Of a stretch of 35,551 bases of DNA, positions 5,738-35,328 are shown piece after piece. A program made the translations under genes and the position numbers. The stretch is from assembly GCA_903844155.1 (NCBI GenBank), contig CAIMSU010000261.1, positions 1 to 35,551 of the forward strand, in the 5' to 3' direction. This stretch comes from an uncultured Pseudomonadota bacterium (GTDB taxonomy: Bacteria; Myxococcota_A; UBA796; SXON01). Position 1 is the first letter of the stretch, and the number at the start of each line of letters is the position of its first letter. Below the pieces are notes generated by a model. It was given only the letters and a program-made list of their open reading frames with translations, did no database searches and was not told where the DNA came from.

Positions 5738-5757
5738 GCCCGGGATAAACCACGGCG

Positions 5758-6705
5758 ATGCTCTACCCCGAAGTCCCCCCGACCCGCACCGGGATGCTCC
5801 GCGTCTCCCCGCTCCACGAGATCTACTGGGAGGAATGCGGGAATCCGACGGGCATCCCCGCCGTGTTCGTCCACGGCGGCCCGGGTGCCGGCTGCGATGC
5901 CGTCCACCGGCGGTTCTTCGACCCCGCCCGCTACCGCATCATCCTGTTCGATCAGCGTGGGTGCGGGCGCTCCAAACCGCACGCCGAGCTGGCCGAGAAC
6001 ACGACCTGGGACCTGGTCGCCGACATGGAGCGGATTCGTGAGCTGCTCAACGTCAAGTCCTGGCTGGTGTTTGGCGGGAGCTGGGGCAGCACGCTCGCCC
6101 TCGCGTACGCGGAAACGCACCCGGAGCGCGTCCGGGCGCTGGTCCTGCGCGGGATCTTCCTGCTTCGCGACTGCGAGATCCAGTGGTTCTACCAACAGGG
6201 CGCGAGCTGGCTCTTTCCCGACTACTGGACGGACTACCTCGCGCAGATCCCCGGTGAAGAACGTGGTGACCTCGTCGTCGCCTACCACCGCCAGCTCACC
6301 TCGCCCGATCCGGCCGTCCGTCTCGCCGCGGCGAAGGCCTGGAGCATCTGGGAGGGGCGCACGTCCAAGCTGCTGACGAGCCCGGACATGGTCGACCACT
6401 ATGCCAGCGACGAGTTCGCCCTCGCCTTTGCCCGCATCGAATGCCACTACTTCATCCACCGCGGGTTCTTCGCCCGCGACGATCAGCTCCTTGCAGACGT
6501 CGGGCGGATCCGGCACATCCCGGCCGTCATCGTCCAGGGCCGGTACGACGCGGTGTGCCCGATGAAAAGCGCGTGGGATCTGCACGAGGCCTGGCCTGAA
6601 GCGCGCCTTCTGGTGGTGCCGAACGCGGGACATAGCGCCTTTGAGGACGGGATCCTCGCGGGGCTGGTGCAGGCGACCGACGATTTCGCGCGCACGCTGG
6701 GATAG
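5758..6705 (+). CDS. pip: Proline iminopeptidase (alpha/beta hydrolase, peptidase family S33)
   Basis: Releases N-terminal proline from peptides. The 315-residue length and motifs are typical: HGGPGAG (39-45) oxyanion region, DQRGCGRS (65-72), nucleophile elbow GGSWGS with Ser108, Asp264 in QGRYDAVCP and His292 in PNAGHSAFE, completing the catalytic triad. The opening YPEVPPTRTGMLRVSPLHEIYWEECGNP also matches the family. There is no signal peptide, so it is cytosolic. ATG 5758 lies 20 bases after the previous stop. A 95-base gap follows it, and that gap is the most likely place for the promoter of the CapBC-type operon, although I see no convincing -35/-10 pair there. Confidence 0.93.
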   Translation: MLYPEVPPTRTGMLRVSPLHEIYWEECGNPTGIPAVFVHGGPGAGCDAVHRRFFDPARYRIILFDQRGCGRSKPHAELAENTTWDLVADMERIRELLNVKSWLVFGGSWGSTLALAYAETHPERVRALVLRGIFLLRDCEIQWFYQQGASWLFPDYWTDYLAQIPGEERGDLVVAYHRQLTSPDPAVRLAAAKAWSIWEGRTSKLLTSPDMVDHYASDEFALAFARIECHYFIHRGFFARDDQLLADVGRIRHIPAVIVQGRYDAVCPMKSAWDLHEAWPEARLLVVPNAGHSAFEDGILAGLVQATDDFARTLG

Positions 6706-6800
6706 TTCTGTCACCCTCGCCGCATGGCCGCGCGTCACCCAGTGCAATAAACCGCGTGCATGCGCGCTCAGCGGCCCCAACACGCCTCCGCGGGCTCTGA

Positions 6801-8699
6801 TTGACGCTGGCCTTGTGGCGCGGTCCGATCGTCGGCGCCCTCCTGGCCGGAGGGCTGGCCCTGCTCTCCACCGCGATGGACTGGCGAGGCACTGACTGGG
6901 TTGGCACGCTGGTTCCTCCTCCACAATTGGGGGCTGTGCTGGTGACGGGGCCGATGGCCGAAGCGGTCGCGTCGGCGCGGGCGGCGGGCGCTGACCCGGT
7001 GTACGGGGCCTTTCCGAGCGGGAGCAAGTGGTTGGCGGGGGCGACGGGCGAGCCGGTGGGGCTCGAGCAGGACTCGCGCGGGAGGATCCGGACGTACAAC
7101 GGTGAGGAGCTGCCGCTCCCGGAGGGGCTGCGCGGCGTCGTCGGCATGACGGCCGACCAGCTTGCGGGCGACGGGCAGTTCCTGAAGGACCGGACGGTCG
7201 TGGTCGTCGACGCGGACGCCGTGGCGGGAGACGAGGTGCTCGTGCCGGGGGTGGCGGAGCCGGTGGACCGTGGGCGGGTGCTGGCCGTTGCGCTGGGGTC
7301 GGCGGCGTCGGGCGCGTTCCTGCATGCGCCGGCAGCCGGGGTGGTGGTGGGTGGTGTGGCGGCGTCGGCGCTGGTGTGGGGGTTCGGCCTGGCCCGGCTT
7401 GCGCCCGATCGCGCGGTGATCGCGGGCCTGATCGCGGGGGTGCTCGCGCTGGCGCTTGTGGTGGCGGCGCGCGTGGCACGCGTCGACCTGCCGCTCGTTC
7501 CGCTCGTTGGGATGTGCCTTGTGCCCGCAGCCGTCCGCTACGTGGACGCGGCGACCGCGGCGTTCGCAGCGCTCGACCGCGTTGCCTGGCGGGTGGGCCG
7601 GAACCCCGCGGCGGCGCAGCTCCGAGCGCAGATCGCGGGGCGTGCGGCGTTGGCGGCGTTGCACGGAGAGGGTGCTGTGGTGTGGGGGGACGCGTCGCCC
7701 CCCACCATCGTCGCCCGTGCGGGACGAACGCCGGTCGTGCCCGAGCTGGCTTCCCTCCCCACCAAGAGCGAGTGGCGGGAGGGCTTCTGGATCGTGCCGG
7801 TCCACCACGAGGGCCGTGCCATCGGCGCGATCGGGCTGGTCAGCCCCGCCTCGGATCCGCTTCGCGGCGAGCTCCTCGGCCCCCTTGCCGGTGGCTTGAA
7901 GCCCTCCGCGCTCCCGAGCTACCCCGAGCTCCGGGCCACCCTCGCGGTCAGCGCCGTGGAGCGCGCGGCCGAGTCGTCGCGGTGGTGGGAGATGGTGCTC
8001 GCCGATGCAGGCCTCTACGCGGGGGTGTTCTCGCTCGGCGGGGACCTGATGGTGATGAGCCGGGGCTTCGCCGACTGGGTGCGGCCGAACGACGCAAACC
8101 CGCTCACGGCCGCGCTCGCGCGCATCGTTGGCGGCACCGATCGCGACAACCTGCGCGCCCTCCGAACGGCGCTGACGGGGCGGAGCGCGCGCGTGCTGAC
8201 GGAGGACGGGCGACAGGAGCTGCGGGTCACGCAGATCGTGTCGGGGCGGGTTCCGCAGGGCTTCCTGGTCCTGGTGCTGCCCATCGGCTCGGCGGCGGAT
8301 CGCTCCGAGCGCGCGCGCCTGCACGAGGCGCTCGTCCGGGTGACCGAGCGGTTGGGGCCAGAACGCGCTGCTGCCCTCATCGTCGATGCTCCCGGCCTGG
8401 CTCAGCCCATCGCAGCCCCGGCCGCAGAACTTGAGGAGATGCTGTACGAGCTCCTCGACGGGTGCCTCGCCCGCAACGCCCGCGCGATGATCCGCGTTCA
8501 CGCGGAATACCATGGTCTCGCATTGGAGATGACGGTGGTCCCAGAACGGCTCGACTCCGGAACGCTGCGCACGCTGCGCGAGGAGCTCGACATGCTCATG
8601 CGGCCGTTGGAGGAGCTTGGTGCCACGGTTGAGCCGGTCGCGTTTTCGGGAGACGGGCTCGTCCAGGTTGCCCTCTTCCCTTTCCATGCCCGAAGCTAG
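6801..8699 (+). CDS. Membrane sensor-like protein (CHASE2-like plus degenerate kinase-like C-terminus)
   Basis: First gene of the CapBC block (632 residues, TTG start). One membrane segment at about 8-26 precedes an extracytoplasmic region. That region ends in LKDRTVVVVDAD ... VLVPGVAEPVDRGRVLAVALGSA, reminiscent of the end of a CHASE2 domain, followed by three or so membrane spans (about 160-248). The cytosolic part shows a GAF/PAS-like stretch (WIVPVHHEGRAIGAIGLV, then about 390-500). The last 95 residues, beginning ELEEMLYELLDGCLARNA, resemble the N-box of a histidine-kinase ATPase domain. I see no phospho-acceptor H-box and no G1/G2 glycine boxes, so kinase activity is doubtful. It is probably a regulatory partner of the polymer synthesis machinery. 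Its stop is 6 bases before the capC-like gene. Domain names are by eye. Confidence 0.6.
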   Translation: MTLALWRGPIVGALLAGGLALLSTAMDWRGTDWVGTLVPPPQLGAVLVTGPMAEAVASARAAGADPVYGAFPSGSKWLAGATGEPVGLEQDSRGRIRTYNGEELPLPEGLRGVVGMTADQLAGDGQFLKDRTVVVVDADAVAGDEVLVPGVAEPVDRGRVLAVALGSAASGAFLHAPAAGVVVGGVAASALVWGFGLARLAPDRAVIAGLIAGVLALALVVAARVARVDLPLVPLVGMCLVPAAVRYVDAATAAFAALDRVAWRVGRNPAAAQLRAQIAGRAALAALHGEGAVVWGDASPPTIVARAGRTPVVPELASLPTKSEWREGFWIVPVHHEGRAIGAIGLVSPASDPLRGELLGPLAGGLKPSALPSYPELRATLAVSAVERAAESSRWWEMVLADAGLYAGVFSLGGDLMVMSRGFADWVRPNDANPLTAALARIVGGTDRDNLRALRTALTGRSARVLTEDGRQELRVTQIVSGRVPQGFLVLVLPIGSAADRSERARLHEALVRVTERLGPERAAALIVDAPGLAQPIAAPAAELEEMLYELLDGCLARNARAMIRVHAEYHGLALEMTVVPERLDSGTLRTLREELDMLMRPLEELGATVEPVAFSGDGLVQVALFPFHARS

Positions 8700-8705
8700 G
8701 ACCCG

Positions 8706-11468
8706 ATGAACTTCCTCTTCATGCCCGCCTCCTCGATCGATGCCTCGATCGTCGGCCCGGTCATCCTGGGCTTGATCGTCCTGTGGGCGTTCCTCGAGAC
8801 GCTTGGCTGGAACTTCACCGGCATCGTCGTCCCCGGGTACCTCGCCTGCGTCCTCGTGCTGCAGCCGGTCACGGCGGCGTTCATGGTCGGCGAGATCCTG
8901 CTCGCCTGGCTCGTGGTCGTCAGCGTCTCCGACCACATCTCGCCGAACTGGCCTTGGACGCCGTTTTTCGGGCGAGAACGGTTCTTTCTGGTCCTCGTCG
9001 TGTCGGTCGGGGTGCGCGTTGCCGTGGAGGGTGGCCTGCTGCCGTTCCTCACGCCGGACAGCGGGAGTCTGTCCACAGCGCTGCATTCGATGGGCTTTGT
9101 CGTCGTGCCGCTGGCCGCGAACGCCCTCTGGCGCACGGGGCTCGGCCCGGGCATGACGCGCCTTGGCGTGCCTGTCCTGATCGTGTGGGCGCTGCTGAAG
9201 TTCGTGATCCTGCCGTACACGTCGATCTCGCTGCAAGGCTTCCAGCTCGTCTACGAGGACCCCTCGCTGAGCTTCCTGTCGAGCCCGAGGGCCTACATCC
9301 TGCTGCTGTTCGGTGCGTTCGTCGGCAGCACGGCGAACCGGCGCTTCGGGTGGGACTTCGGGGGCATCAGCGTCTCGGGGCTGCTCGCGCTTTGCTGGCT
9401 TTCGCCATGGCGAATCGTGACGACGCTCGCCGAAGCCGTCTTCATCGTCGTCACGTACCACGCCGTGGTGCGACTGCCCGGGTTTCGCAACGCGAACATC
9501 TCGGGCGGACGCCCGTTTGTCCTGGCTGCCGCGCTCGCGTTCCTGGCGAAGGCGCTGTTTGCCCGTGGGCTCGCCTACTGGCTGCCGGACCTCGGCGCCC
9601 AGCAGTTCTACGCGTTCGGCTACCTGCTCTCCGCCCTGATCGCGCTGCGCTGCATCAAGTACGGCGACCTGTGGCGTCCCATCTTCTCCGCGGTCGTCAC
9701 GAGCTTCCTGGGGTTTGTGACCGGGAGCGCCGTCGGCTACGCGTTGGCAGTAGCGCTGCCGCCGCCCGCGCCGGAGGCGCTCAAGGAGACAGCCGCGGCG
9801 ACGACGTCGTGGGCCATCGAGCTCTGGCGCGGCACCGTTCGCACTCCGACGGGCGAACCGGCGCTGGCGAGCACGCTGCTCTCAGCCCGAAAGGACGCGG
9901 TGTACGGCGTCGGCGGAGAGGCGGGCGCCGGCTTCTGGAACCGGGATGGGGCGAAGAACCTCGCGGTTGTCGTGATCAACAACACCGACCTGGCGCCGGC
10001 GGTGGCGGCGGGCCTGGCCGAGAAGCTGGACGCGCGCGCCGCGCTCGTGTGCGCGAAGAGCGGGCCTGAGTGCGAGCAGGACATCAAGGATCTCGGCGGC
10101 GAACTCCCGGTGCTGCGGGTTGAGCGGGTGACGGGGAGCGAGCCACCCGCGCTGACTGCACCCGGGCAGCTCCCCCCCGACCTCCAGGTAGGCGTACTCC
10201 GTGCGCTTGAGAGCGATCTTCGGATTGACGTCGGCGGGACGCGGGACACGCGGGTGCGGCTCTCCAGGGACGGGTGGAACGCCGCCGCAAACCTTGGACT
10301 TGACGCAACGCCGGCGCCGCTTGTGGGTGTGGTGGCGGACCCGCCCGGTTGGCTGACGGTCTCGGACTTCGAGGAATCCACGCTGCTTGCCATGCAGGGG
10401 GCGCTCTTCGGGCCGATGCAGGTCTGGCAGAGCTCCGGTGACGAGCAGCAGCTTCGCATCGCCGCAGCGGCGGCGCGCGCGTTCGGGCTCACGCTCCGGC
10501 GAATCGGCCCGCTTGCGGTCGTCGACGGCCCGGATTGGCGCGTGATCGTGCGCACCAGCTCGCCCGGCGATGTGCGGGACGGGAACCTGCTGATCATGTC
10601 GCCCGGGTCCTCGGACGAGCCCACCACCCTCCCCGCCATGTTCAGCCTCGGCGAGGCCATGGGCGCCTCCGCTTACGTGCTCGACAGCGCGCCGACCCTC
10701 ACGTCCGAGCACCTTCCGCGGGTGCGCCCGTCCCAGGTCGCCCTGCTGCGCTTCCTGATGAACGCCGACGGCGCAACGCGGAAGAACACCCAGGTGCTGA
10801 GCATCCGGGACGTGAACGATCAGCTCGACATCGGCGGCGACATCGTCACCTCCATCGGCCGCCCGCTCGCCACCGCGGACGCCCTTGCGAACGCCGTGCC
10901 GCCCGTCCTCACCGAGGTCGAGGCGCTCGCCGCGCGCAGCGGCCTGAACACCGCCCGCTACGACGGCGCCGGGCTGCGGATCACCCTGCAGGACCCCTTC
11001 GATCCGGTGCGGTACGCAGCGCGCGCTTCACAGGGCGACGATGCCCACGTGGCCGTGTTCATCGGGCCGAACGCGCGGGCCCGTTTCCGTCGGCCCGAGG
11101 TCGACCCCAAGTTCGGGCCGCTCCTGCTTGGCCTCGGCGAACAGCCGCTCTCGGCCTACGCGGAGTCCGACTTCGTCGAGCCGGATGCGAGCTGGGCTGC
11201 CGTTCGCGACGCGATGGACGCGCTCGGCGACAAGCCGACGAAGGCCCACTTCTCGGCCGCCATCGCCGCAGGTGCCGCGACAGGGGCCGAGGCCTCCTTG
11301 GTCTGCGACCCCCTGCTCGGCTGCCGGTGGCTCGCCTTTGAGCGGGATGATGGTGGCCACCGCCGCGGAATCCTCGCCCCGCTCATCCGCGGCGGGACGG
11401 CCGAGGCGGGTGACTTCCGGCGTCGCACGGCCCTCGGCTCGGCCGACGTCGCCTGGGCGGTGCCATGA
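8706..11468 (+). CDS. CapC/PgsC-like polymer synthesis membrane protein, tandem-duplicated, with large extension
   Basis: CapC/PgsC is the small membrane partner of the CapB ligase in poly-gamma-glutamate synthesis. In Bacillus it is about 150 residues; here the protein has 920. Residues 33-54 carry the family signature GWNFTGIVVPGYLA ... QP, and FVVVPLAANALWRTGL (131-146) matches the second conserved block. The same order recurs about 180 residues later: GWDFGGISVSGLLAL (215-229) and YLLSALIALRCIKYGD (306-321). So two CapC units lie in tandem within the first 350 residues, about ten membrane segments. Residues 360-920 are soluble, have no recognised motif, and contain alternating hydrophobic strands. 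ATG 8706 follows the upstream stop by 6 bases. The TGA stop overlaps the next ATG (ATGA). Confidence 0.8.
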   Translation: MNFLFMPASSIDASIVGPVILGLIVLWAFLETLGWNFTGIVVPGYLACVLVLQPVTAAFMVGEILLAWLVVVSVSDHISPNWPWTPFFGRERFFLVLVVSVGVRVAVEGGLLPFLTPDSGSLSTALHSMGFVVVPLAANALWRTGLGPGMTRLGVPVLIVWALLKFVILPYTSISLQGFQLVYEDPSLSFLSSPRAYILLLFGAFVGSTANRRFGWDFGGISVSGLLALCWLSPWRIVTTLAEAVFIVVTYHAVVRLPGFRNANISGGRPFVLAAALAFLAKALFARGLAYWLPDLGAQQFYAFGYLLSALIALRCIKYGDLWRPIFSAVVTSFLGFVTGSAVGYALAVALPPPAPEALKETAAATTSWAIELWRGTVRTPTGEPALASTLLSARKDAVYGVGGEAGAGFWNRDGAKNLAVVVINNTDLAPAVAAGLAEKLDARAALVCAKSGPECEQDIKDLGGELPVLRVERVTGSEPPALTAPGQLPPDLQVGVLRALESDLRIDVGGTRDTRVRLSRDGWNAAANLGLDATPAPLVGVVADPPGWLTVSDFEESTLLAMQGALFGPMQVWQSSGDEQQLRIAAAAARAFGLTLRRIGPLAVVDGPDWRVIVRTSSPGDVRDGNLLIMSPGSSDEPTTLPAMFSLGEAMGASAYVLDSAPTLTSEHLPRVRPSQVALLRFLMNADGATRKNTQVLSIRDVNDQLDIGGDIVTSIGRPLATADALANAVPPVLTEVEALAARSGLNTARYDGAGLRITLQDPFDPVRYAARASQGDDAHVAVFIGPNARARFRRPEVDPKFGPLLLGLGEQPLSAYAESDFVEPDASWAAVRDAMDALGDKPTKAHFSAAIAAGAATGAEASLVCDPLLGCRWLAFERDDGGHRRGILAPLIRGGTAEAGDFRRRTALGSADVAWAVP

Positions 11469-13999
11469 GCCTCGCCCGCATCCTCGGCTGGCTGACCGTC
11501 ATCGTCGGCGTCGCGTTCCTGCTCCTCGCCCGCCCGACGCTGGACGACGGGGCGATCGCGCGCGATCGGCTCATCACCTACCGGGTCGAGGACGGCCTCA
11601 CCTTCGCCCTGAGCCCCGACGAGGAGCAGGTCAAGTTCATCAGTTGGCTCGTCCCGCCGACGCATCAGGCGCCCGACACGCGGCGAAGCTGGCCGTACCG
11701 GGTCGAGGCGATCGTCCGAGACGTCGCTGGCAAGGAGGTTGAGAGCCAGCAGTTCTGGATCCGCGGCCGAATGGGCTGGATCGAGCGGCTCGACACGCAC
11801 GCGTTTGAGGCGCCGAGCCGCTTCGAGGCCGACGACTCGCTGACGATCTGGCCAAACCGCAGCACCCGTCCGCCCGAGGACATCTGCGACGATCGCCTCA
11901 CGCTCCTGGACGTCCACGGCCTCGTCCCGCACGGTGGAACCATCGAGATCCACCCGTTGGACGTGCCAGAAGGGGGTCGGCTGGTCGGCATCGCGTTTGA
12001 GCGCTCCCGGCGGTCCGACGTCGATCAGGCGCGCGAGGCGAGCCGCAAGGGCTCCACGGTCCTGGCACGTGCGGCCGCCCGACTGGGACCGTTCGACTTC
12101 CTCGAGTACTCCGAAGACTGGCGGATGAACCTGGCCGAGTTTGAGTGGCGTCGCTTGAGCGCGCTGAACGACGGGATTGACCGCAACGAGCCCCGGCGGG
12201 TCGAGGCGGCGTTCGAACGCCTGCCGTTTGAGGACGTCGCCGCCGTGGCGTGGCCGCTGTGGCCGGGTGGCGTCGCGTCCTTCAATCTTGAGGGCAAGGC
12301 GTCCATCGCGTTCCAATGGTGGAAGACGGACGCGAGCGGGGTCGTAAACTCCGCTGCCTTGATGCGGATCGTCCACAACAACCGCGCGCCAGACGCGCCG
12401 ACGACCATCGACAAGACCTCGTCGTTCGGGCCCTTTGAAGTGGACGGTGGAGTCAACACCGTGGAAGTCGCGCTGCCGCCGGATGCGCCGGGGCCGCTGC
12501 TCCTCCGGGCGACAACGACGGGGGCCGAGGTGGACCGCGCGTTCGGTGACCCGCCGCGCCGGGCCTACCCGGATGGGGTTCAGGCCGTGGCGCCCGATCT
12601 CCGCAGCGTCGTTCCATGGCGTACTGGCCCGGGGCTCTCGCCGCTCTACTACAACCTCAACCCTGGCGAGCTGGTGCAGGTCACGGCTCGGCAGCGCCTC
12701 GCGCCGGGGCTTTTGGCGGCGTTTGACGTGCCTGCGCTGGAGACGGGCGTGTCGGTGGTGGTGGAGGCGCTCGACCCGGCCGACAAGGTCATCCGGTCGT
12801 GGACGCGCATCCTCACGCCGATGGCGAGCGCCTGGGAGCGGTACACCGAGCAGGATGATCCGTCGACGGCGCGGGTCTCGGAGCCGGAGCGGGTGTGGTT
12901 CGAGCCGGCGCCGGGGATGGCGGGGCTTCGGATCTCGGCGACGGGCCTCGTGGACGTGGACATGGAGGTCAAGCTGCCGTTGCCGGAGATCGTGGCGCGC
13001 GAGTACGACCTGCCCTCGGACACGGACCCGCACGTGAGCGTCGACTGGGAGCCGCATCGGGACACGCCCTGGCAGGCCCGGAACCCCCGCGGTGCGGAGG
13101 GGTTGTTCGAGGAGCACCGCCAGGTTCGCATCGACGGGCAGGTGCGGCTGGACTGGCGGCCCGACGAGCCCGTCGTGCCCGCGCCGATCACCGTGCCCCC
13201 GGGCGGCGTTCCGGGGATCGTGCATGTTCCGGCGGTCGTCGTGGTCCCACCCGCCCGTCACTACGAGCCCTTGCCGGTGCCCGCGCCGTTTGAACTCGTC
13301 GCGCGACCTGCTGGGAACGGCGGAGGGGAGGGCGGCGCCGTCAGCCACCTCGGCCGCGATGCGTCCACCGTCGTCATCGGCGATGACGGCGCCCTGGAGG
13401 TCGAATATCGCGTGGCTGCCGCGCTCGTCGGCAAGACCGCCACGTTCAAGGTCGGCGGGCAGCCGTGGAACCCGCTGCTGGAGTCGACATCGGGCACCCT
13501 GCGGCTGGAGGGCCTCAACCCGGGCTCGGTGCACGTGGGCGTGTCGACGGTCGGAACGTTCCTTGCCCGCGCTGTGGGGAGCGACGCGTGGAGCATTCGC
13601 AAGCTGCGGCCGCTCAAGCCCGGCGCCACCTTGCACATCACGTTGCCCGAGGGCGCCGGCCAGGTGCTCGTGGACACGTACTCGACGGCGGGCGTGGCGT
13701 TGACCTGGGACCTGCAGGACGAGCGCCAGGAGGGGCTGTTGGAGCATCCGCCCGAACGCGGAGGCGTGGCCCGGCTTGCAGCGAGACGGCCGGCCTCGGC
13801 GCTCTCGTTCGAAAGCCCGACGCTGCAGCAGCTTGATCCGCTGGTCATCGAGCGCGGCGTGGCGCGGGGCGAGCTGAGCATCTCGTACACAGCGCTCCCG
13901 GGCTCGGCGGGGCAGCCGCTCTACATCCGCATCCTCGCCGAAAAGGGCGGGACAGCCCCGACCGACCCCACACGCCACTGGCGCACGGGGGTGAGATGA
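11465..13999 (+). CDS. Membrane-anchored periplasmic protein of the CapBC-type operon (844 aa)
   Basis: I do not recognise the family. One N-terminal membrane segment (about 5-22, ILGWLTVIVGVAFLLLA) is followed by more than 800 residues without another hydrophobic span, so it is likely anchored in the inner membrane and projects into the periplasm. The body is beta-rich. A proline-rich stretch at about 567-613 (VVPAPITVPPGGVPG ... EPLPVPAPF) separates it into two parts, like a hinge or spacer. The C-terminal part has repeated short strands (STVVIGDDGALEVEYRV, TLRLEGLNPGSVHVGVSTVG). The start codon overlaps the capC-like stop by four bases, and the stop overlaps an ATG of the next frame, so it is cotranslated. 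A scaffold linking inner and outer membranes is an inference from this layout. Confidence 0.65.
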   Translation: MSLARILGWLTVIVGVAFLLLARPTLDDGAIARDRLITYRVEDGLTFALSPDEEQVKFISWLVPPTHQAPDTRRSWPYRVEAIVRDVAGKEVESQQFWIRGRMGWIERLDTHAFEAPSRFEADDSLTIWPNRSTRPPEDICDDRLTLLDVHGLVPHGGTIEIHPLDVPEGGRLVGIAFERSRRSDVDQAREASRKGSTVLARAAARLGPFDFLEYSEDWRMNLAEFEWRRLSALNDGIDRNEPRRVEAAFERLPFEDVAAVAWPLWPGGVASFNLEGKASIAFQWWKTDASGVVNSAALMRIVHNNRAPDAPTTIDKTSSFGPFEVDGGVNTVEVALPPDAPGPLLLRATTTGAEVDRAFGDPPRRAYPDGVQAVAPDLRSVVPWRTGPGLSPLYYNLNPGELVQVTARQRLAPGLLAAFDVPALETGVSVVVEALDPADKVIRSWTRILTPMASAWERYTEQDDPSTARVSEPERVWFEPAPGMAGLRISATGLVDVDMEVKLPLPEIVAREYDLPSDTDPHVSVDWEPHRDTPWQARNPRGAEGLFEEHRQVRIDGQVRLDWRPDEPVVPAPITVPPGGVPGIVHVPAVVVVPPARHYEPLPVPAPFELVARPAGNGGGEGGAVSHLGRDASTVVIGDDGALEVEYRVAAALVGKTATFKVGGQPWNPLLESTSGTLRLEGLNPGSVHVGVSTVGTFLARAVGSDAWSIRKLRPLKPGATLHITLPEGAGQVLVDTYSTAGVALTWDLQDERQEGLLEHPPERGGVARLAARRPASALSFESPTLQQLDPLVIERGVARGELSISYTALPGSAGQPLYIRILAEKGGTAPTDPTRHWRTGVR

Positions 14000-14026
14000 A
14001 AGGGTGGATTTCACGGCTGAGGCCTG

Positions 14027-14213
14027 TTCAGGCGAAGACGCGACCCTGTGTTCTGAGGGGGGACGCCGAGGGCGTCCCCCCTCCGGCCGCCGGGGGCGGC
14101 CTACCCCCGGGCCGGGCCCTGACGGTGATTCGGGGTACCGAATCACCGCGACTTTGCGCGACCGGGAGCGCCGGAGTACCGGCGGCCGGTCGCGCAAAGG
14201 TCCGGGCCGGCCG
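14027..14213 (+). repeat. Full copy of a dispersed structured repeat inside the operon junction
   Basis: This element matches 35329-35515 over its whole length and, in part, 51-132 on the other strand. It contains three stems. Stem 1: GAGGGGGGACGCC (14055-14067) with GGCGTCCCCCCTC (14071-14083). Stem 2: GGTGATTCGG (14124-14133) with CCGAATCACC (14138-14147). Stem 3: CTTTGCGCGACCGG (14152-14165) with CCGGTCGCGCAAAG (14186-14199), which encloses an inner stem CGCCGG (14169-14174) with CCGGCG (14179-14184). Several stem positions differ from the other full copy in a paired way. The element lies between the stop of the 844-residue gene and the signal peptide of the next gene, and has no in-frame stop. 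Confidence 0.85.
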
Positions 14214-14217
14214 TCAT

Positions 14218-17200
14218 TTGAGCACCGTCGCGGCTCCCACGGCACGCCTCGGGGGCGGCGCCGCGATCCTCGCTCTCCTGGCCGGTCTGGCCCTCCGGCC
14301 CGAGGCCGCCCAAGCCGCGTCGTGGTCCGAGGCCGAGCCGCTGGTGCGCAACCTTCAGCCGGACGGGACGCTGCCGCTGGTCGCGGGGCGCGCCCTGCTG
14401 ATCGAGCCCGGCGCCGCGCAGATCGCGATCACGACGGCGGACGGCGATGCGGTGCCGGTCAAGGTCGAGGGGGCCGAGGTGCTCATCCCGTCGACGGAGT
14501 CGCTGCGCCGCCTGACCTTTGACGGCGATCTGCGAGGGGTGGCGGTTCGTTTCCAGGAGCGGCGCGGGGACGCGGGCCAGTGGGAGGCCTACGAGCGGCG
14601 GGTGCTGCGGCTCCTTCGCACGCCGGATCTCGGGCAGATCGGGCAGGTGGAGACGACCCCCTGGGGCAGCGCGCGATTGTCGGCGTCGATCCGGCTTCGT
14701 GCCCGGGCCGTGGTGGACGCTGGCATCGCGCGGCTGGGAGCGCTCGCGGATCTCGAGGCGGACCGTCCTGCGAGCTACCCCTCGCACGGCGCAGCCGTCA
14801 TCGTGCTGGATCGCCTGGCGCAGGCCGGGGCTCCGGCGGGCTCGCACGGCGCGTTCTCGGTCGTGGGTCCCGGACTCGTGCGGGTACGCGTCCAGCCAGT
14901 CGCGAACGGCAATTTCGTCCGCTTTCCGACCACGGTGAGCATCGACGGCAATGTCGTCCTCGCGCGCGTTGAGGGGTCGACGGGCACGGTGCCGTACTCC
15001 GAGGACCTCTGGCTGCCGCCGGGCTCGCACGACGTGACGGTCGACACGGCTGGAACGCCGGCCACGTTCGGCGCCGAGGTTCACCGCTTGCGCGGTTGGA
15101 CGCTGGCCGGGCGGGTTGGGGCGACGGGGCGGGAGACGGGCATGGCGTTGGCGGAGGCGCAGTTCCTGGCCGGGAAGCGGGAAGACGCCGTCGCCTTGTT
15201 CCGGTCCCACCTCAAGGATGAGGGGGTCGCTGGCGCGTTCGCCCGGGCGCGCGTGATCCTGCTGACGGACGATCTGGACGAGCTGCGTCGGCTGGCGACG
15301 GAGGCGATGAGCGAGACCGTCGGCAGTGCCTGGCAGCCAGTTTCCCACGATCAGGACGTGGTCGAGGTGACGGCAGACGCGATCCTCCGGCGCGGCGCGG
15401 CGCTGGACCCGACGCTGGTGCGCGCCGCAGTGGACGCTGCGATGGACCCGGACCCCGAGGCGCTGGCCGCGTGGCTCGACAGCCTCGGGGGATCGCGTCC
15501 GCGCGGGCTGGCCTGGCAAATGCGGGGCGCGGATGTGCCGCTCGGCGAGGACCCGCGGAAGGGGGCGCTGCGTGAGGCGGCGCGGTCGACACGCTGGGTG
15601 CGGATGACAGCCTCATCCGGGATGGACGGCGGGTTTGTCTCCAGCGACCAGTGGCCAGGGGTCCCGCGTGCGCACGTCATCGCCGGAGCGCAGTTCGATG
15701 TGCAATTGCCGGACGTCGGGCACGGGCGGGTCCCCGTGCTCGCGCTCAACTCGGTTGGGCCGGCCCGCTACCAGATCGACGGGGTCGAGCACCAGACCCA
15801 GGGTGGCGACCTCACCGTCGCTTTGCCTGCGGGTGACCACACGCTCGCGGTCGAGTCCGGCGAGATCGTCGTCCCCGAGGCCTCGCTCGTGCCGCTCGCG
15901 CCGCGCACCTACGACTGGCAGCGCACCATGCTCCCCGCGACGTTCCCACTGCCTGATGCCGGCGCGCCCGTCGCCCTGCGTGTCGACGCCGCGGGCTTGC
16001 GGGTCGTGCACGCCGTCCTCCGCACCGCGACCGGGACCGAGCGCCCGGTTGATCTCGACGTCTCCGACGGGGCGGCCGTGTTCAGCGCGAACGCGGACGA
16101 GACCTCCGTCAGCTTCGCGGGAGTCGTTGGCGGCGAGGTTGGTCTGGCGATGCGGACCGTGCGCGTCGATCCGCCGCCCCGCACGGTCTTTGACGGCGAC
16201 CCCGGGCCGTTGCTCGCGGAGATCGCGCGTTTGAGCACCGAGATCGACCACACCACCGGGGGCGCCGCTGCGGCCTCCCGCATCGACCGCGCGCGCCTGT
16301 TGGCTACGCTCGGGCAGGTGACCGCGTGCCGTCAGGACCTCGCCCGCGCGCTCGCTGCGGACCCCAGCTTGCGCGAGCCCGCAGGTGTCGTGGCGGCGCT
16401 CCTGCCCGACGTGCCTTCGGCCGTCCTCCCCGGGCCCCAGACCACCGCGGCGACGATGGCAGCCGCGAACCCCGGCTTGTCGTTCTCGTTCGGCGGAACG
16501 CCCGCGGACCGGGCCACCCAGCTTGAGGTCCTCGGCGACTCCGTCAACGGCGCCTGGCTCGCAGCAGCCCGCGAGCGCCAGACGGCGGGCGACCTCGTCA
16601 AAGCCCTCGACGACGCCCGCCTCGCCGGTCCGGAGGGCGTAGAGCTCGCGACCCAACTGGAGCTTCGCGTCCGCTACAAGAGCATCCCGCGCGTCGACAC
16701 CTCCGCCGGTCTCGTCCCCGTCAGCGTGAAGCCCGACCCCGTCGACCCGAACGCACCCCTCTGGCACCGCGTCCGCGACGCGCTGCTCGCCGCTCCCGCC
16801 GATTTCCAGGACGCCACGAAGACCGTGACGCTGCGTGGCCCCGGCGGCGATCTCGCAACGGCCAAGGGCTCGACGTACACCGTCCGGCTGTACTGCCGCC
16901 AGGAGGGCGCGATCGGGCCCGACGGCGTCGCCGATTCCTCCTCGCCGCCGTGCGTGGTCGCCATCCGCTTCGATGATGAGCACCGCCTCGTCCAGATCGC
17001 AGACGGCAGCGCTGCGCAGGTGGACTTCAAGGGGCCGCGCGGCCTGCATGACGTCGAGATCAGCGGGCCGGGCGACGGATACGCCGTGCTCGCCCGCGTG
17101 GACGTTGACGGAAAGCCCCTGGCCATGCACGTGACGCGCAACGCCATCCGGGTGATGCCCGGGCAGCCGATCGCCGTCTCGGTCGCGGGCGAGGGGGTCG

Positions 17201-18318
17201 TGCGCGTGGACGCGGTCTCCGGCAGCCTCAAGGTGCGGCTCGGGGATGGCGCGGGCGCGGTGCATGGCGTGGCGACAGCCGGAGCGCCCTTCGTCGCTGC
17301 GGCGCCGGGCGAGGGTGCCCTGGTGCTGCACGTCGTCGGCGACGGCGAAGTGTTCATCTACCGGGGCACGTTTCCGAGCGTCACCGCGCTCGCGGGCGCG
17401 CCGGACATCCCGCGCGGATTTCCGTCGCCGTCCTTCCCCGTCGACTCGCTGTTGGCTCGTCAACCGCTGCCCCCGTCGGACGTGCTGGGTGAGCCTGGCA
17501 GCCGCGGCTCCGTGCGGGTTGGCGCGGCGGTGGTGGTTGACTCGCTTCGGGCGGCGAGCGTGCCCTACGCCGCGCTCACTGGCGAGTGGCTGCGGACCGA
17601 GGGGCACGGGTGGCTGCGAGCCGGGGCGTGGACGCACGTCCCCCTCAACAGCGTTTCCGTTGGCGGAGACGCCGCATACATCTGGACCAACGGGTTCCTG
17701 CAAGGCCACGGCGACCTCGTCGCTGAGCCGGGCTCCGTCGGCCTCGACGGCTTTCTGCGCGTGCGCGAGGGGGTGCCCTTTGCGGCGAATTGGCAGGTCC
17801 GCGGGCGCGCCGAGCTGTTTGCGCGGCCCTCGTTCTCCAAGCCCCGCCTCGGCGGTGACCCCAACGTCTGGACGCTCTACCGGGCCGACCACCCGTTTGG
17901 CGCAAGCCTGGACGCCAGCGTCCTCTCGACGCCCACCCGGGACCTGCGCTGGGAGGGCGGCTTGAGCCTCATCACCAACGCCGGCCCGACCATCGACCAG
18001 ATCGGCCCCTACCTCTCCGTCGACCTCCTCCCCGGTCCTGCGACCTGGCTTGGCTTCGATCTCCGCACGCCGCTGAAGCTCGCCGACGACCATCGGGCTG
18101 CCACCGTTTTTGCCCCGCGCGTTGAAGCGCTCGTGAATGAGGCCATCTGGATGCAGGACACCCGCCGCCTCGTGCTGTACTCGAAGATCGGCCTCGAAAC
18201 GGACACAGTCTCGCCCGACTTCCAGGCCGGGCTCACGTGGATGTGGACCGACCACCGCGGCCTCCGCGACCTTGCGCCGGACGGTGAGCCGTTCATGACG
18301 ACCCGGGAGGCGCTGTGA
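14218..18318 (+). CDS. Very large exported protein of the CapBC-type operon, possible outer-membrane barrel
   Basis: I choose TTG 14218 because the product then begins MSTVAAPTARLGGGAAILALLAG..., a proper signal peptide with a likely cleavage after AAQA near residue 33. The frame is also open from ATG 13996, which overlaps the previous stop as ATGA, but that start would put 74 residues of repeat-derived sequence before the signal peptide. From TTG the protein has 1366 residues. It has beta-rich regions, a TPR-like helical stretch at about 310-365 (AEAQFLAGKREDAVALFRSHL) and another at about 660-725. The last 270 residues (about 1097-1366) alternate polar and aromatic/hydrophobic residues in short strands, such as DAAYIWTNGFLQGHGDL, LRWEGGLSLITNAG and RLVLYSKIGLETD, as in outer-membrane barrels. 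The family is not recognised. The stop overlaps the next GTG. Confidence 0.65.
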   Translation: MSTVAAPTARLGGGAAILALLAGLALRPEAAQAASWSEAEPLVRNLQPDGTLPLVAGRALLIEPGAAQIAITTADGDAVPVKVEGAEVLIPSTESLRRLTFDGDLRGVAVRFQERRGDAGQWEAYERRVLRLLRTPDLGQIGQVETTPWGSARLSASIRLRARAVVDAGIARLGALADLEADRPASYPSHGAAVIVLDRLAQAGAPAGSHGAFSVVGPGLVRVRVQPVANGNFVRFPTTVSIDGNVVLARVEGSTGTVPYSEDLWLPPGSHDVTVDTAGTPATFGAEVHRLRGWTLAGRVGATGRETGMALAEAQFLAGKREDAVALFRSHLKDEGVAGAFARARVILLTDDLDELRRLATEAMSETVGSAWQPVSHDQDVVEVTADAILRRGAALDPTLVRAAVDAAMDPDPEALAAWLDSLGGSRPRGLAWQMRGADVPLGEDPRKGALREAARSTRWVRMTASSGMDGGFVSSDQWPGVPRAHVIAGAQFDVQLPDVGHGRVPVLALNSVGPARYQIDGVEHQTQGGDLTVALPAGDHTLAVESGEIVVPEASLVPLAPRTYDWQRTMLPATFPLPDAGAPVALRVDAAGLRVVHAVLRTATGTERPVDLDVSDGAAVFSANADETSVSFAGVVGGEVGLAMRTVRVDPPPRTVFDGDPGPLLAEIARLSTEIDHTTGGAAAASRIDRARLLATLGQVTACRQDLARALAADPSLREPAGVVAALLPDVPSAVLPGPQTTAATMAAANPGLSFSFGGTPADRATQLEVLGDSVNGAWLAAARERQTAGDLVKALDDARLAGPEGVELATQLELRVRYKSIPRVDTSAGLVPVSVKPDPVDPNAPLWHRVRDALLAAPADFQDATKTVTLRGPGGDLATAKGSTYTVRLYCRQEGAIGPDGVADSSSPPCVVAIRFDDEHRLVQIADGSAAQVDFKGPRGLHDVEISGPGDGYAVLARVDVDGKPLAMHVTRNAIRVMPGQPIAVSVAGEGVVRVDAVSGSLKVRLGDGAGAVHGVATAGAPFVAAAPGEGALVLHVVGDGEVFIYRGTFPSVTALAGAPDIPRGFPSPSFPVDSLLARQPLPPSDVLGEPGSRGSVRVGAAVVVDSLRAASVPYAALTGEWLRTEGHGWLRAGAWTHVPLNSVSVGGDAAYIWTNGFLQGHGDLVAEPGSVGLDGFLRVREGVPFAANWQVRGRAELFARPSFSKPRLGGDPNVWTLYRADHPFGASLDASVLSTPTRDLRWEGGLSLITNAGPTIDQIGPYLSVDLLPGPATWLGFDLRTPLKLADDHRAATVFAPRVEALVNEAIWMQDTRRLVLYSKIGLETDTVSPDFQAGLTWMWTDHRGLRDLAPDGEPFMTTREAL

Positions 18319-21300
18319 GCACCCCCGCCGAATCCGGCCATCCGCCCCGGCGCTCGCTGCACGCCCGCGCAGACGCGTTCGTGCCCCCGCTGCGCCCGTC
18401 CAACCTGCCGGCGCACCCGCTCGCGACGTGGGTACGGCCGCTCTTTGCGCGCGTTCGTCGCGAGGAGTTGGACTGGTTCACGCCGCAGGTGGCCGGCCTG
18501 GGGCTCACGGCCACGGCCGAAGCGGTCGTTCAGGCGATCCAGGCGGCGCGACGGGAGCGCGGCGGGTTCGAGGAGCGGGCGGAGCTCCTGAAGGCGCAGC
18601 ACGATCAGGCGCGCACCGAGGTTGAACGACGCGAAGTGTTGGCCCGCTACCTGCGAGTGAACGCGGTGCCGGGGAACGCCCGGGGGTTGAGGCGGGACCT
18701 GCGCGCGCTCCGCGACACGTTGGATCTGGGTGCCGTGCTGGAGCGGGAGGCGCTGGAGGTCGAGCGGTGGGGCGCGCGAATCGAGGTTGGCGCCGAGCTG
18801 CTCGCCGGGCTGGTGAGCGAGGTGTGTGCGACGGATCCGCAGGAGGCCGGCAGGCTCCTCGACGAGACGGTCGGCTGGCTGCTCGCGGATCTGCTTGGCG
18901 ACGTGCGGAAGCCAACGCGCCGGACGGCTGCGCGGGCGTTGGCGGAGGCGGGGGCGACCGTGCTGGACGCGAAGGGCGGCCTGTCATCGGAGCGGCTGGC
19001 CCCGCTGCAAGCGGCAGTCACCGATCAGGACGAGGATATCTGGGTGCGACGCGCGGCGCTGGGACTTGCGCTGGGGCTCGACGCCCCGACGGCGCAGCGG
19101 TGGATCCAGTACGGGCTTGAACCCCGCGGCGTCGATGCGGCGCTGCTCCGCGCCAGGGCCGTTGAGATCGCGCTTCGCCGTCCGGAGGCGTGGGGACGCA
19201 CGATGCCGATGGGCCTGCTCGAGGACCCGGCGGAGGTCGTCCGTTTTGCCTACGTGGAGGGCCTCGCGGCGCGCTCGGAGTGGGACCCCATCGCCCCCTC
19301 GGACCTGGCCCAGGTCTGCGAGGGGGCGCGCGACGCCCGGACCCGCGCGCTGGCTGCGTGTCGGCTCGGCGAGGCTGCGGCCCGGCATGCTCACATCCCG
19401 CTCTCCGGGTTGGTCACGGCGGTGCTGGACGAGGCGTTGGTGGCGGGTTTTGCGCTCGAAGGCGTCCTCGCTGTGGTTCGGAGTGGTCGCCAATTGACGG
19501 AGACCCTGCGCGAGACGTTGATCCTCCTCATCGGCTCGGACTCGCCGCCCATCGCGCGACTGGCGGCGCTGGCGCTCTCGACCGAGCACGGCGCGCAGAG
19601 CTCGGTCCGCGGGTTGGCGGCGGAGATCGCGGGCTTGCGCCTGGGAGAGGTCGGGACGGTCACGCTGCCGGAGGACATGGAGGTCGGGGAGCTGGCGCAG
19701 GCGCTGGTCCCGCACGCGGCCGAGGGGTTTGGCTTTGCCATCGATGTCGGCCGTTCCGGCGGGCAGAGCCGGTTGCGGATCAGCCGCGGCGACGCCATGG
19801 AGATGACGAACTGGCGGGTGATTCACGAGATCCGCAACCCCGGGCCGGTCAAGCGGCAGACGATCAGCCACACCACGGGGCGTGCGGACACAGGCTCGGT
19901 GCGCATTCCCCCGTCCCGGCTCGCGGAGGAGAGCCCGACCGGGGTGCCGGGCCAGCGATTGGTGGTCGAGCGCGAGGGCGGCTGGGCGCCGGTGGTGCCG
20001 ATGGTCGACGATTTTCTCCATGCGGCGCGGCGGGGCCGGGTCACGGTCGTGTCGGCTGAGGGGGTCACGGAGATCGAGGGCCCTTCGACCTGGATGGGGC
20101 GCATGCGGGCGCGTTCGGCGATCACCACGCGCTACCGGGCTCTGGACGCGAGCCGGACGGCGTCGCTGGCGGAGGAGGATCCCCAGCTCCGCCGCCGTTT
20201 CGTCGCGGCGTTCGAGGAGCTCGGGTTCACGGTGAAGTCGTCGGCGGTCGGCGTATTCAGCCGGTATTTCGACAGCGGGTTCCGCATCCTCGACCCCGTC
20301 GCGTTCGTGCTGTCGATGCGGTCGAACACGATCGTGCACGTGGCGTGGGTTGTCGCGTTCTTCGCCGCTCTGCTGGTGGCGCGGCAGATCCAGGTGCGCC
20401 TGCAGGTCAACGCGGCGCGGCGGAAGATCCCGCTGGTCGTCGGCGGGTGGGGAACGCGCGGAAAGTCCGGCAGCGAGCGGCTCAAAGCGGCGGTGCTGGA
20501 AGGGCTCGGGATCCCGTACCTGTCCAAGACGACGGGCTGCGAGGCGATGCTGTTGCACGGGCCGCCCGGCGGTCACGCGCTGGAGCTCTTCCTGTTCCGC
20601 CCCTTCGACAAGGCGACCATCTGGGAGCAGGCCGACTGCATCAGCCTGGCGCCCCAGCTCGGTGCGCGTGCGTTCCTCTGGGAATGCATGGCGTTGAACC
20701 CCGTGTACGTGGACATGCTGCAGCGCTTCTGGATGAAGGACGACCTCTCCACGTTGACCAACGCGTACCCCGACCACGAGGACATCCAGGGCCCGAGCGG
20801 CATGGACGTTGCCGAGGTTCTCGGTGTCTTTGCGCCCCCCGGCGCCACGCTCGTGACGACGGAGGCGAACATGCTCCCGGTCCTGGAGGAGCAGGCGCTC
20901 AAGCGGGGCTCAAGCATCATGGCCATCGGGCGTGCGGACCGCGAGTTGGTCGCCCGCGAGCTGATGGACCGGATGCCCCACGTCGAGCACCCCGCGAATG
21001 TTGCGCTCGCGACGGCGTTTGCGGCGGCGCTTGGCGTCCCTCCGGTCGAGGCGGTCGGCCTGATGGGCGAGCACGTCGTCCCCGACCTCGGCGCGCTGAC
21101 GATCACCCCGACGGCGTCCACGGAGGACCGCGAGGTCGTGTTCGTGAACGGCATGTCCGCGAACGACCTGCTCTCCTTCCGGCACAACTGGCGACGGGGT
21201 GGCTTTGCCGATCACGACGTGGTCCGCGACCCGGGGACGTTCCTGGTGACCGTCGTCAACAACCGCGACGACCGGGCCGCCCGCAGCCGCACGTTCGCGG

Positions 21301-22352
21301 GCGTGCTGGCCACCGAGGGCGCCGCTCACCGGCACGTCCTGATCGGCACGAACCTCGCTGGCCTGCGCCGGATGGTCGACGACGCTGTCAACGAGCGACT
21401 CCGCGCCACCTCGCTTGAAGACGGCGACCGCGTCGAAGCGCTGTTCCGCCATCTCAAGATCGTCCACCCGGTGCTGCTCGCGGGGGCCTGTGGCAAGCGC
21501 CTCGGGCTCGGCGAGACGACCGGCATCCGCGCCGCGCTGACCGATCTGGAGCTTCCCGAGCCCACCTGGCCGGACGCCCAGCATCGCGCTGAGTCCTTGC
21601 GCCCGGCGTTCACCGCCTTCGCCGAGTCGCACACCGACCTCGTCGACCATCTCGTGGCAGCAGCCGCCCGCTGGCTCGCCCTTCAGGCCTGCCTCTCGGC
21701 CCGCCCCGCCGCCGCGTTCACCGTCTACCGCGAGATCGTCCGCGCCTCGCTCATCACCGTCGACGACCCCGGCGCCAGCGCCGATCAGGTCATCGCCGCC
21801 GCCGTCCACGCTGCCCCGCCCGGCACAAATGTTCGCATCATCGGCGTCCAGAACATCAAGGGCACAGGCCTCGCGTTCGCGTACGAGTGGGTCCACTTCC
21901 GCCGGTTGTGCGTGCTCATACGCAATCTTTCCAGCCGCGATGGTGACGCTCGCCGCGACGCGCTCGACGCGATCGAGGGCCACCCCATGGCCTCCGTCAT
22001 CGCCTACGACACCGCCATCGGCGCGCTCCAGACGGTCACCGACCCGCGGCTGATCGAGCGGGTCACGGCGATCACCGCGCGTTTCCGGGCGGAGCGGGAG
22101 CGGTTGATGAGCATTCGGGACATTCGGCGAGGCTCCTGGTTCATGTCGCCCCTGCAGGCTGCGTTGGGCCTGCTGGAGCGCTTCCTCGACCCGTTTGACT
22201 CGCTCTTGCGGCGCTGGGCGGCAGACAAGGTGTTCCGGGACCTCGCGGCGATGCGGATCTCGCATGTGCGCGCGTCCCAGAAGTTGGCGGAGCTGACCGA
22301 GCGGCAGAAGGGTGGCTGGCTCGGGGGGTGGAAGCAGGCGGGGAAGGATTGA
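18315..22352 (+). CDS. CapB/PgsB-like poly-amino-acid ligase fused to a HEAT-like N-terminus
   Basis: CapB/PgsB is the ATP-dependent Mur-ligase-like amide ligase of poly-gamma-glutamate synthesis. It is about 400 residues in Bacillus; this product has 1345. Family motifs lie in the second half: Walker A GTRGKSG (713-719), SKTTGCEAM, WECMALNP (789-796), LTNAYPDHEDIQGP (814 onward, with D820 and H821), TTEANMLPVLEEQALKRG, EHPANVALATAFAAALG and FVNGMSANDLLSFR. One membrane segment (about 671-690) comes just before the P-loop, as in Bacillus PgsB. Residues 180-430 are alpha-helical pairs of HEAT type; 430-570 is a beta-rich domain; the tail after 1080 is not recognised. The GTG start overlaps the upstream stop (GTGA). 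Substrate cannot be inferred; glutamate is only the precedent. Confidence 0.85.
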   Translation: MSTPAESGHPPRRSLHARADAFVPPLRPSNLPAHPLATWVRPLFARVRREELDWFTPQVAGLGLTATAEAVVQAIQAARRERGGFEERAELLKAQHDQARTEVERREVLARYLRVNAVPGNARGLRRDLRALRDTLDLGAVLEREALEVERWGARIEVGAELLAGLVSEVCATDPQEAGRLLDETVGWLLADLLGDVRKPTRRTAARALAEAGATVLDAKGGLSSERLAPLQAAVTDQDEDIWVRRAALGLALGLDAPTAQRWIQYGLEPRGVDAALLRARAVEIALRRPEAWGRTMPMGLLEDPAEVVRFAYVEGLAARSEWDPIAPSDLAQVCEGARDARTRALAACRLGEAAARHAHIPLSGLVTAVLDEALVAGFALEGVLAVVRSGRQLTETLRETLILLIGSDSPPIARLAALALSTEHGAQSSVRGLAAEIAGLRLGEVGTVTLPEDMEVGELAQALVPHAAEGFGFAIDVGRSGGQSRLRISRGDAMEMTNWRVIHEIRNPGPVKRQTISHTTGRADTGSVRIPPSRLAEESPTGVPGQRLVVEREGGWAPVVPMVDDFLHAARRGRVTVVSAEGVTEIEGPSTWMGRMRARSAITTRYRALDASRTASLAEEDPQLRRRFVAAFEELGFTVKSSAVGVFSRYFDSGFRILDPVAFVLSMRSNTIVHVAWVVAFFAALLVARQIQVRLQVNAARRKIPLVVGGWGTRGKSGSERLKAAVLEGLGIPYLSKTTGCEAMLLHGPPGGHALELFLFRPFDKATIWEQADCISLAPQLGARAFLWECMALNPVYVDMLQRFWMKDDLSTLTNAYPDHEDIQGPSGMDVAEVLGVFAPPGATLVTTEANMLPVLEEQALKRGSSIMAIGRADRELVARELMDRMPHVEHPANVALATAFAAALGVPPVEAVGLMGEHVVPDLGALTITPTASTEDREVVFVNGMSANDLLSFRHNWRRGGFADHDVVRDPGTFLVTVVNNRDDRAARSRTFAGVLATEGAAHRHVLIGTNLAGLRRMVDDAVNERLRATSLEDGDRVEALFRHLKIVHPVLLAGACGKRLGLGETTGIRAALTDLELPEPTWPDAQHRAESLRPAFTAFAESHTDLVDHLVAAAARWLALQACLSARPAAAFTVYREIVRASLITVDDPGASADQVIAAAVHAAPPGTNVRIIGVQNIKGTGLAFAYEWVHFRRLCVLIRNLSSRDGDARRDALDAIEGHPMASVIAYDTAIGALQTVTDPRLIERVTAITARFRAERERLMSIRDIRRGSWFMSPLQAALGLLERFLDPFDSLLRRWAADKVFRDLAAMRISHVRASQKLAELTERQKGGWLGGWKQAGKD

Positions 22353-22691
22353 CGGCGACGGGGCTCACTGCAGGAACAGGTAGGCCGTGCCGAGGTCCCG
22401 CCGATTGCCGGTGGACTCCGCGCCCTGCGGCGGATCGGGGATGGAGAGGTTTTCGGGCACCCTCACGGTCGCGCGCCGCGCCGCCGGCCAAAGCCCAGCC
22501 GGTCCAGGCGAATGGTGTGACGTTCAACTCGACTGGCGAGTAAGCCCCGGCGGAGCTCCCGAGGTCCAAAACACAAGTTCGGGGGCGGACACTCTGGCGG
22601 ACGCCTGCTCCAGCGCGACGTACGGTGCCCTTGTCATGGCGTTGGAGCGGGTCTGACACTGCCGACGGGCAAGCCGGTGCTATGTTCGATC
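22353..22691 (+). other. Gap after the CapBC-type operon
   Basis: This 339-base stretch separates the ligase gene from the arylsulfotransferase-like gene. It has no clear hairpin terminator, repeat or RNA gene that I can see. The only coding signal is a doubtful small ORF (22387-22656). The promoter of the next gene may lie in the last part of the gap, but no convincing motif is visible. Confidence 0.5.
22387..22656 (+). CDS. Doubtful small ORF, possible gene remnant (89 aa)
   Basis: The frame opens with GTG 22387, or ATG 22441 for a 71-residue product starting MERFSGTLTVARRAA. The latter part looks protein-like: a beta-strand opening, GEWCDVQLDWRVSPGG, and DACSSATYGALV near the end. Two cysteines would suit a disulfide in an exported domain, but there is no signal peptide. 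Its third codon positions contain more A and T than the neighbouring genes, so it may be a decaying fragment of a secreted protein. No ribosome binding site is convincing. It could equally be chance. Confidence 0.22.
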   Translation: MPRSRRLPVDSAPCGGSGMERFSGTLTVARRAAGQSPAGPGEWCDVQLDWRVSPGGAPEVQNTSSGADTLADACSSATYGALVMALERV

Positions 22692-26933: not shown

Positions 26934-27027
26934 GCGAGCGTCACCATCGGCGACGGTTTCCGCGAGCCGACCCGCGACAACCGCCGCTCGGCGGGGCATA
27001 TTGGCGCACGTTTCCGGAGACCACCCC

Positions 27028-31230
<4,203 letters not shown>

Positions 31231-35209: not shown

Positions 35210-35328
35210 GGGCGTTCCGGGGGCACGCGCACTATGCATCCCCGTGGCCGAAGTTCAAGAGAACTGTGCGCGCTTGCAGACTCTTGACGGGGTGGGCAAG
35301 CCCCGGTGGGCGATCGGGCTCGACGCCC
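35210..35328. other. Upstream region of the aspartic protease gene
   Basis: This short stretch separates the protease start from the dispersed repeat. It should hold the protease promoter, reading leftward. The - strand gives CCCCGGAACGCCC just before ATG 35209, a weak ribosome binding site. No clear promoter hexamers or hairpins are seen. Confidence 0.4.

Follow-up and report, generated by a model that had tools for sequence, protein, structure and literature searches.

We analysed a 35,551-nucleotide window, the whole of one contig (C261) in an 8.1-Mb draft genome of an uncultured bacterium that the GTDB places in Myxococcota_A, and focused on five plus-strand genes at positions 6801-22352 that form a tight unit. 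They encode, in order, a sensor-like membrane protein (P1), a tandem CapC protein, two large envelope proteins (P3 and P4) and a CapB-type amide ligase, and we consider it fairly likely that a CapBC-type ligase is here coupled to a TPR-barrel exporter in a trans-envelope machine for an amide-linked polymer. The features of the unit are as follows.

6801..8699, plus strand: P1, a CHASE2-type membrane sensor (weak GAF match; CHASE2/PhoR matches of relatives; sister copy 68% identical)
8706..11468, plus strand: tandem CapC protein, 920 amino acids (PF14102, 4.5e-35, in two stretches; conserved in aligned relatives)
8766..9146, plus strand: CapC domain 1 (PF14102, 75.9 bits)
9312..9665, plus strand: CapC domain 2 (PF14102, 61.6 bits; hhalign to domain 1, E 1.5e-8)
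10374..10868, plus strand: hydrolase-like domain with a degenerate motif, in the soluble part of CapC (hhalign against the A5 family)
11465..13999, plus strand: P3, a predicted inner-membrane-anchored periplasmic protein of multiple beta-sandwiches (N-terminal transmembrane segment; AlphaFold model)
13996..18318, plus strand, start uncertain: P4, a predicted exported scaffold that combines beta domains with TPR-like helices and carries a barrel at its C-terminus (signal-like segment; AlphaFold model)
16204..16662, plus strand: TPR-like helical region of P4 (model residues 497-649, P4 residues 737-889)
17509..18246, plus strand: predicted 14-strand outer-membrane beta-barrel of P4 (model residues 932-1177)
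18315..22352, plus strand: CapB-type amide ligase of 1345 amino acids, extended at both ends by large additions (TIGR04012, 9.1e-57)
20346..21443, plus strand: Mur-ligase core of CapB (conserved ligase motifs)

All five frames are present at these coordinates. The four-base overlaps described in the initial annotation, which was made from the sequence alone, are there (ATGA, ATGA and GTGA, at 11465, 13996 and 18315) and join CapC, P3, P4 and CapB, while six bases separate the end of the sensor gene from the start of CapC. The closest relative in the named genome collection is Baikal-deep-G128, a metagenome-assembled genome (MAG) from Lake Baikal labelled 'Myxococcales', hereafter the sister MAG, which holds all five proteins at 63-75% amino-acid identity. 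Changes between the two genomes fall mostly at third codon positions (for CapB, 0.21, 0.15 and 0.48 per site at the first, second and third positions), and this bias together with the level of identity supports that the five genes are real. Long opposite-strand frames were set aside as typical of 70% GC DNA, the codon pattern of the sister-MAG comparison backing the plus-strand genes. The true start of P4 is uncertain because the start at 13996 yields ~75 residues that have no counterpart in the sister protein and that precede a signal-peptide-like segment. A scan for promoters and terminators gave nothing beyond chance level.

The synthase pair was identified by profile search. CapC, first recognised by its motifs, matches PF14102 with 121.1 bits (cut-off 27) through two tandem domains that are homologous to each other and are followed by ~560 soluble residues; the tandem arrangement may perhaps stand in for a CapC dimer. 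Against the PgsC model TIGR04011, the protein scores 57 bits, under the equivalog cut-off of 96.45. For CapB the earlier assignment also held: the protein matches the PgsB model TIGR04012 strongly (192.5 bits) and its motifs are intact (P-loop GTRGKS, KTTG, ECM, TN..DH, NR.DR and a late NI.G), but the score lies under the equivalog cut-off of 222.7 and the profile search of the window proteins gave CapB no Pfam match. The ligase motifs are common to the 24 long and the 14 short or other-phylum CapB proteins compared, and long-type CapB has residues of its own, such as GGW ahead of the P-loop. Beyond the core, the window CapB carries additions of ~660 residues at the N-terminus and ~300 at the C-terminus, with a predicted transmembrane segment at residues 670-692. 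The N-terminal part is HEAT-like (HEAT_2, 3.3e-4 in the window and 1e-8 in the relative L049) and is probably a cytoplasmic module, since the distant relative L097 encodes the front part of CapB in a gene of its own, whose product shows no evident signal peptide. With its tandem CapC and modular CapB, the operon presents the synthase in a tractable form; PDB sequence searches with both proteins gave no significant match, and no solved sequence relative was found.

Several components that accompany such synthases elsewhere were looked for in the locus. PF09587 (CapA) matched none of the five proteins and none of the flanking genes that were scanned. PgsW (TIGR04332) likewise matched none of the five, and the same model gave 334 bits on a short-type locus; profile searches found no glycosyltransferase among the five. 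The reported absence of CapA thus holds for the locus but not for the genome, which has unlinked CapA-like (PF09587) genes elsewhere; such a protein could conceivably play a part in the system.

P3 and P4, for which no family had been proposed, showed no Pfam family in the window or in 11-12 relatives apart from weak TPR matches in P4 (TPR_9 0.02 and TPR_2 0.013 in relatives), where the model has helices. P3 has one N-terminal membrane segment, and its AlphaFold model (predicted local distance difference test, pLDDT, 69.8) is almost all beta with several sandwich domains; a structure search with it returned only beta-sandwich matches of low TM-score, from which no function was assigned. The last 1200 residues of P4 were modelled as beta domains, a helical region, TPR-like helices, further beta domains and a barrel, the last with 14 strands and good model confidence, which bears out the earlier suggestion of a possible outer-membrane barrel. 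In Foldseek the barrel matched OmpG (TMt up to 0.66, probability 1.00) as well as PelB, PgaA and AlgE (probability 1.00), and its VIA Z values were 19.1 for OmpG, 14.3 for the cellulose exporter BcsC and 13.8 for PgaA, against a quoted background of 7-8. The amphipathic strands are kept in relatives at ~20% identity. When strand faces fixed from the window sequence were applied to ten relatives, charged residues lay mostly on the inward face (31/80 versus 7/82 in L053). The outer-membrane barrel of P4 is a structure prediction.

P1 comprises an N-terminal transmembrane segment, a periplasmic domain, three transmembrane segments, a GAF-like domain and a degenerate kinase-like end. In the window the profile search gave a weak GAF match only, with no recognisable kinase signature in the protein; its positional counterparts in relatives match CHASE2 (up to 3.1e-13) and PhoR-type histidine kinases (up to 1.6e-13), in agreement with the sensor-like protein that had been placed in front of the synthase genes.

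Most relatives have an additional gene between P3 and P4, encoding an exported protein of ~280-330 residues. The invariant positions of this family (A5) are APH...D..T, HG and H.E, a motif pattern from which we infer a putative metal-dependent amidohydrolase; searches of Pfam and the PDB gave the family no match. The same domain recurs in diverged form in the soluble part of CapC (hhalign against A5, probability 93-95, E 3e-7 to 3e-8), and there the APH of A5 is replaced by SPG in the window protein. In both the window genome and the sister MAG the hydrolase gene lies on another contig. The idea that the window genome lacks the hydrolase was ruled out by a copy with the full motif on contig C338. 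Directly downstream of this unlinked gene (L141, positions 5015-11242, genome G000, contig C338) is the gene for a 2075-residue exported protein of unknown family.

The distribution of these genes was surveyed in 284 genomes within the Myxococcota, with counts not corrected for kinship. A short type, with a short CapC and a CapB of ~400 residues, occurs in 41/284 genomes, and a long type, with a tandem CapC and a CapB generally of at least 1300 residues, in 25/284; three genomes have both. Long CapB and tandem CapC co-occur in 24 of 25 genomes. A strong match to the hydrolase was found in 25/25 long-CapB genomes and in 4/259 others, again uncorrected for kinship, and one of these four (G037) has a tandem CapC; short-type genomes show no link to the hydrolase. 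Genomes from several families of the class, and from families further away in the phylum, show the order capC-P3-P4-capB, with P4 diverging down to ~17% identity among relatives of conserved order. Variants are split over two contigs or have genes turned round (L058/L099, L100), and at the distant loci L135 and L136 the place of P4 was not matched by the P4 model. The gene set for which the initial annotation proposed a survey of other Myxococcota co-occurs across the phylum without CapA in the locus, and most relatives have the hydrolase as a sixth gene. P3 and P4 stand beside long CapBC and not beside the four short-type loci inspected (L144-L147). A scan of the named genomes with P3 found the sister MAG only; in a plasmid collection, CapB found only pgsB-type genes, over the ligase core, and the CapC and P4 queries found no match.

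In a tree of the ligase core, with an outgroup of Streptomyces, Chroococcidiopsis and Cetobacterium pgsB genes, 26/26 long proteins fall on one side of a branch that has support values of 100/100 and is present in 200/200 bootstrap trees. By this tree, long CapB is a clade separate from the ordinary short PgsB/PgsC within the phylum, and the families with the long type are spread over the phylum.

Some individual loci add to this picture. Genome G073 has a long type with a separate gene for the CapB N-terminal part (L097) and also an ordinary short PgsB-PgsC-PgsW operon (L146). In the window's own family, L048 and L050 represent a second, more diverged long-type lineage whose place in the CapB tree is among distant families, which suggests horizontal transfer or old paralogy. 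On a Cetobacterium somerae plasmid (L150), an ordinary pgsB-pgsC-pgsW cluster is flanked by genes for a succinylglutamate desuccinylase and a gamma-glutamyltransferase, a further example, in a diderm, of capB lying next to an amidohydrolase gene.

We infer the substrate, the direction of transport and the roles of P3, hydrolase and sensor as follows. CapB, an ATP-dependent Mur-type ligase at the cytoplasmic face, would extend a poly-amino-acid chain together with the tandem CapC, and the two would move the chain through the inner membrane. In the periplasm it would be received by P3 and the CapC soluble part and handed across to P4, which would lead it along the TPR-like scaffold into its own outer-membrane barrel. 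The periplasmic amidohydrolase, encoded beside P4 in most relatives and unlinked here, would trim or release the polymer, and the CHASE2 sensor would gate expression or activity in response to envelope or surface conditions. In Bacillus, gamma-PGA (poly-gamma-glutamate) is polymerised by PgsB and PgsC (PMC5751247). The polymer of the present operon would most likely be poly-gamma-glutamate or a near relative.

This machine is favoured by the homology of CapB and CapC with intact catalytic motifs, by the structural match of the P4 barrel with OmpG and with several polymer exporters (BcsC, PgaA, PelB and AlgE), by the recurrence across many genera of the arrangement capC-P3-(hydrolase)-P4-capB, its genes joined by start-stop overlaps, and by the near-perfect pairing of long CapB with tandem CapC along with the hydrolase in every long-CapB genome. 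Precedent supports each half: the Bacillus polymerases just mentioned, and the TPR-containing outer-membrane proteins that export poly-N-acetylglucosamine (PNAG), cellulose and Pel (PMC9384988; PMC12141448). Several points weigh on the other side. Model confidence is moderate for P3 and for the greater part of P4, the TPR matches of P4 are weak, and the structural evidence consists of single-protein predictions. The inward charges of the P4 barrel are balanced in the window (12 positive, 13 negative), and in relatives the net charge on the inward face varies between -9 and +9, which gives no pointer to a polyanion. The long-CapB branch is also very long, at 3.05 changes per column; together with the CapB score under the PgsB cut-off, this means that the substrate may differ.

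Another product is conceivable, given the long branch and the neutral pore. The same machine might make a different amide-linked polymer, or short amino-acid chains on a sugar or lipid carrier, and we regard this as somewhat unlikely. The long-type CapB proteins form their own clade with their own residues, both synthase proteins score under the PgsB and PgsC equivalog cut-offs, the barrel charge lends no support to a polyanion, and the presence of short and long types side by side in three genomes suggests different jobs; yet the ligase motifs held in common with PgsB are kept, and the co-occurring putative amidohydrolase would fit a gamma-glutamyl-type bond. It is improbable that CapB and CapC make an ordinary capsule by themselves, with P3 and P4 as a co-transcribed anchored protein and a porin outside export. 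Many diderms do have capB and capC without a known outer-membrane exporter (PMC5542703; loci L144-L147), but here the gene order is kept over deep divergence, and P3 and P4 accompany the long CapBC while being absent from the short-type loci inspected. It is very improbable that the operon retains a degenerate or non-catalytic CapBC put to new use as an envelope scaffold. The degenerate hydrolase-like domain of the window CapC would fit this, but the ligase motifs are kept in 24/24 long proteins compared and the sister-MAG comparison shows a strong purifying pattern. The trans-envelope machine for a poly-amino acid remains the reading we prefer; the initial annotation arrived at the same operon parts and overall interpretation, and overlooked the tandem CapC, the hydrolase gene of relatives and the short PgsBC type in the same phylum.

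Other genes in the window were noted in passing. Two arylsulfotransferase-like (PF05935) proteins are encoded in the flanking region at 22677-24047 and 31302-32552. A 1543-residue protein at 26599-31230 has 13 stretches of MopE-type copper-binding repeats (PF11617, 1.6e-114), and the minus strand at 33818-35239 encodes a pepsin-like aspartyl protease (PF00026, 2.5e-33), from a family that is uncommon among bacteria.

The operon shares with the PgsBCA(E)/CapBCA(E) systems of Bacillus a CapB-type Mur ligase and a CapC partner in one operon, with common motifs. It differs in its tandem CapC with a large soluble part, in the HEAT-like N-terminal and the C-terminal additions of CapB, in the lack of CapA in the locus and in two additional envelope proteins, of which one has a predicted outer-membrane barrel. 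We did not file it as PgsBCA because both synthase proteins fall under the equivalog cut-offs and no CapA lies in the locus. The capsule survey that defines its system by capB and capC allows capA to be absent from the model (PMC5542703). The short PgsB-PgsC(-PgsW) loci, found in Myxococcota and in other diderms, belong in part to the same phylum and encode ligase and CapC proteins of the same families, but their CapB (~400 amino acids) and CapC (~150 amino acids) score above the equivalog cut-offs and belong to a separate clade; PgsW is present in L146 and in the Cetobacterium record, and no P3 or P4 was seen there. The CapC of Chroococcidiopsis thermalis pCHRO.01 (333 amino acids) likewise has two CapC-like units in one protein beside pgsB, but it has no large soluble C-terminal part, its PgsB is short and no P3/P4-like genes are annotated in the 10.8 kb examined. 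Neither capA-less capBC nor tandem CapC is new in itself; the novelty lies in the giant modular forms and in the envelope apparatus encoded alongside.

In overall layout the operon resembles PgaABCD, Bcs, PelB/PelC and AlgK/AlgE, which combine an inner-membrane synthase, periplasmic proteins, a TPR scaffold with an outer-membrane barrel and a polymer-processing enzyme; the TPR-like helices, the predicted barrel and the putative hydrolase would be the counterparts of the last three here. In the PNAG and Pel systems the TPR outer-membrane protein modulates the processing enzyme (PMC9384988; PMC12141448). In contrast to them, its polymerase pairs a Mur-type amide ligase with CapC, no glycosyltransferase being encoded in the operon, and the P4 barrel has 14 predicted strands where 16 are reported for PgaA and BcsC (PMC9384988). 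We found no description of such an operon in the open-access library searched, and we see about even grounds for regarding it as a previously undescribed class of secretion machine that joins a CapB/CapC amino-acid polymerase, a TPR-barrel exporter and a polymer hydrolase in one operon, a diderm poly-amino-acid route parallel to Pga, Bcs and Pel with a product that is possibly not gamma-PGA. The papers we found do not cover the outer-membrane passage of poly-glutamate in diderms with capB and capC, the exporter papers treating polysaccharides, and the operon offers candidates for the missing parts in its anchored periplasmic protein, TPR-barrel exporter and trimming hydrolase. The short sister type in the same phylum allows a comparison, and with these candidates the export question becomes directly testable.

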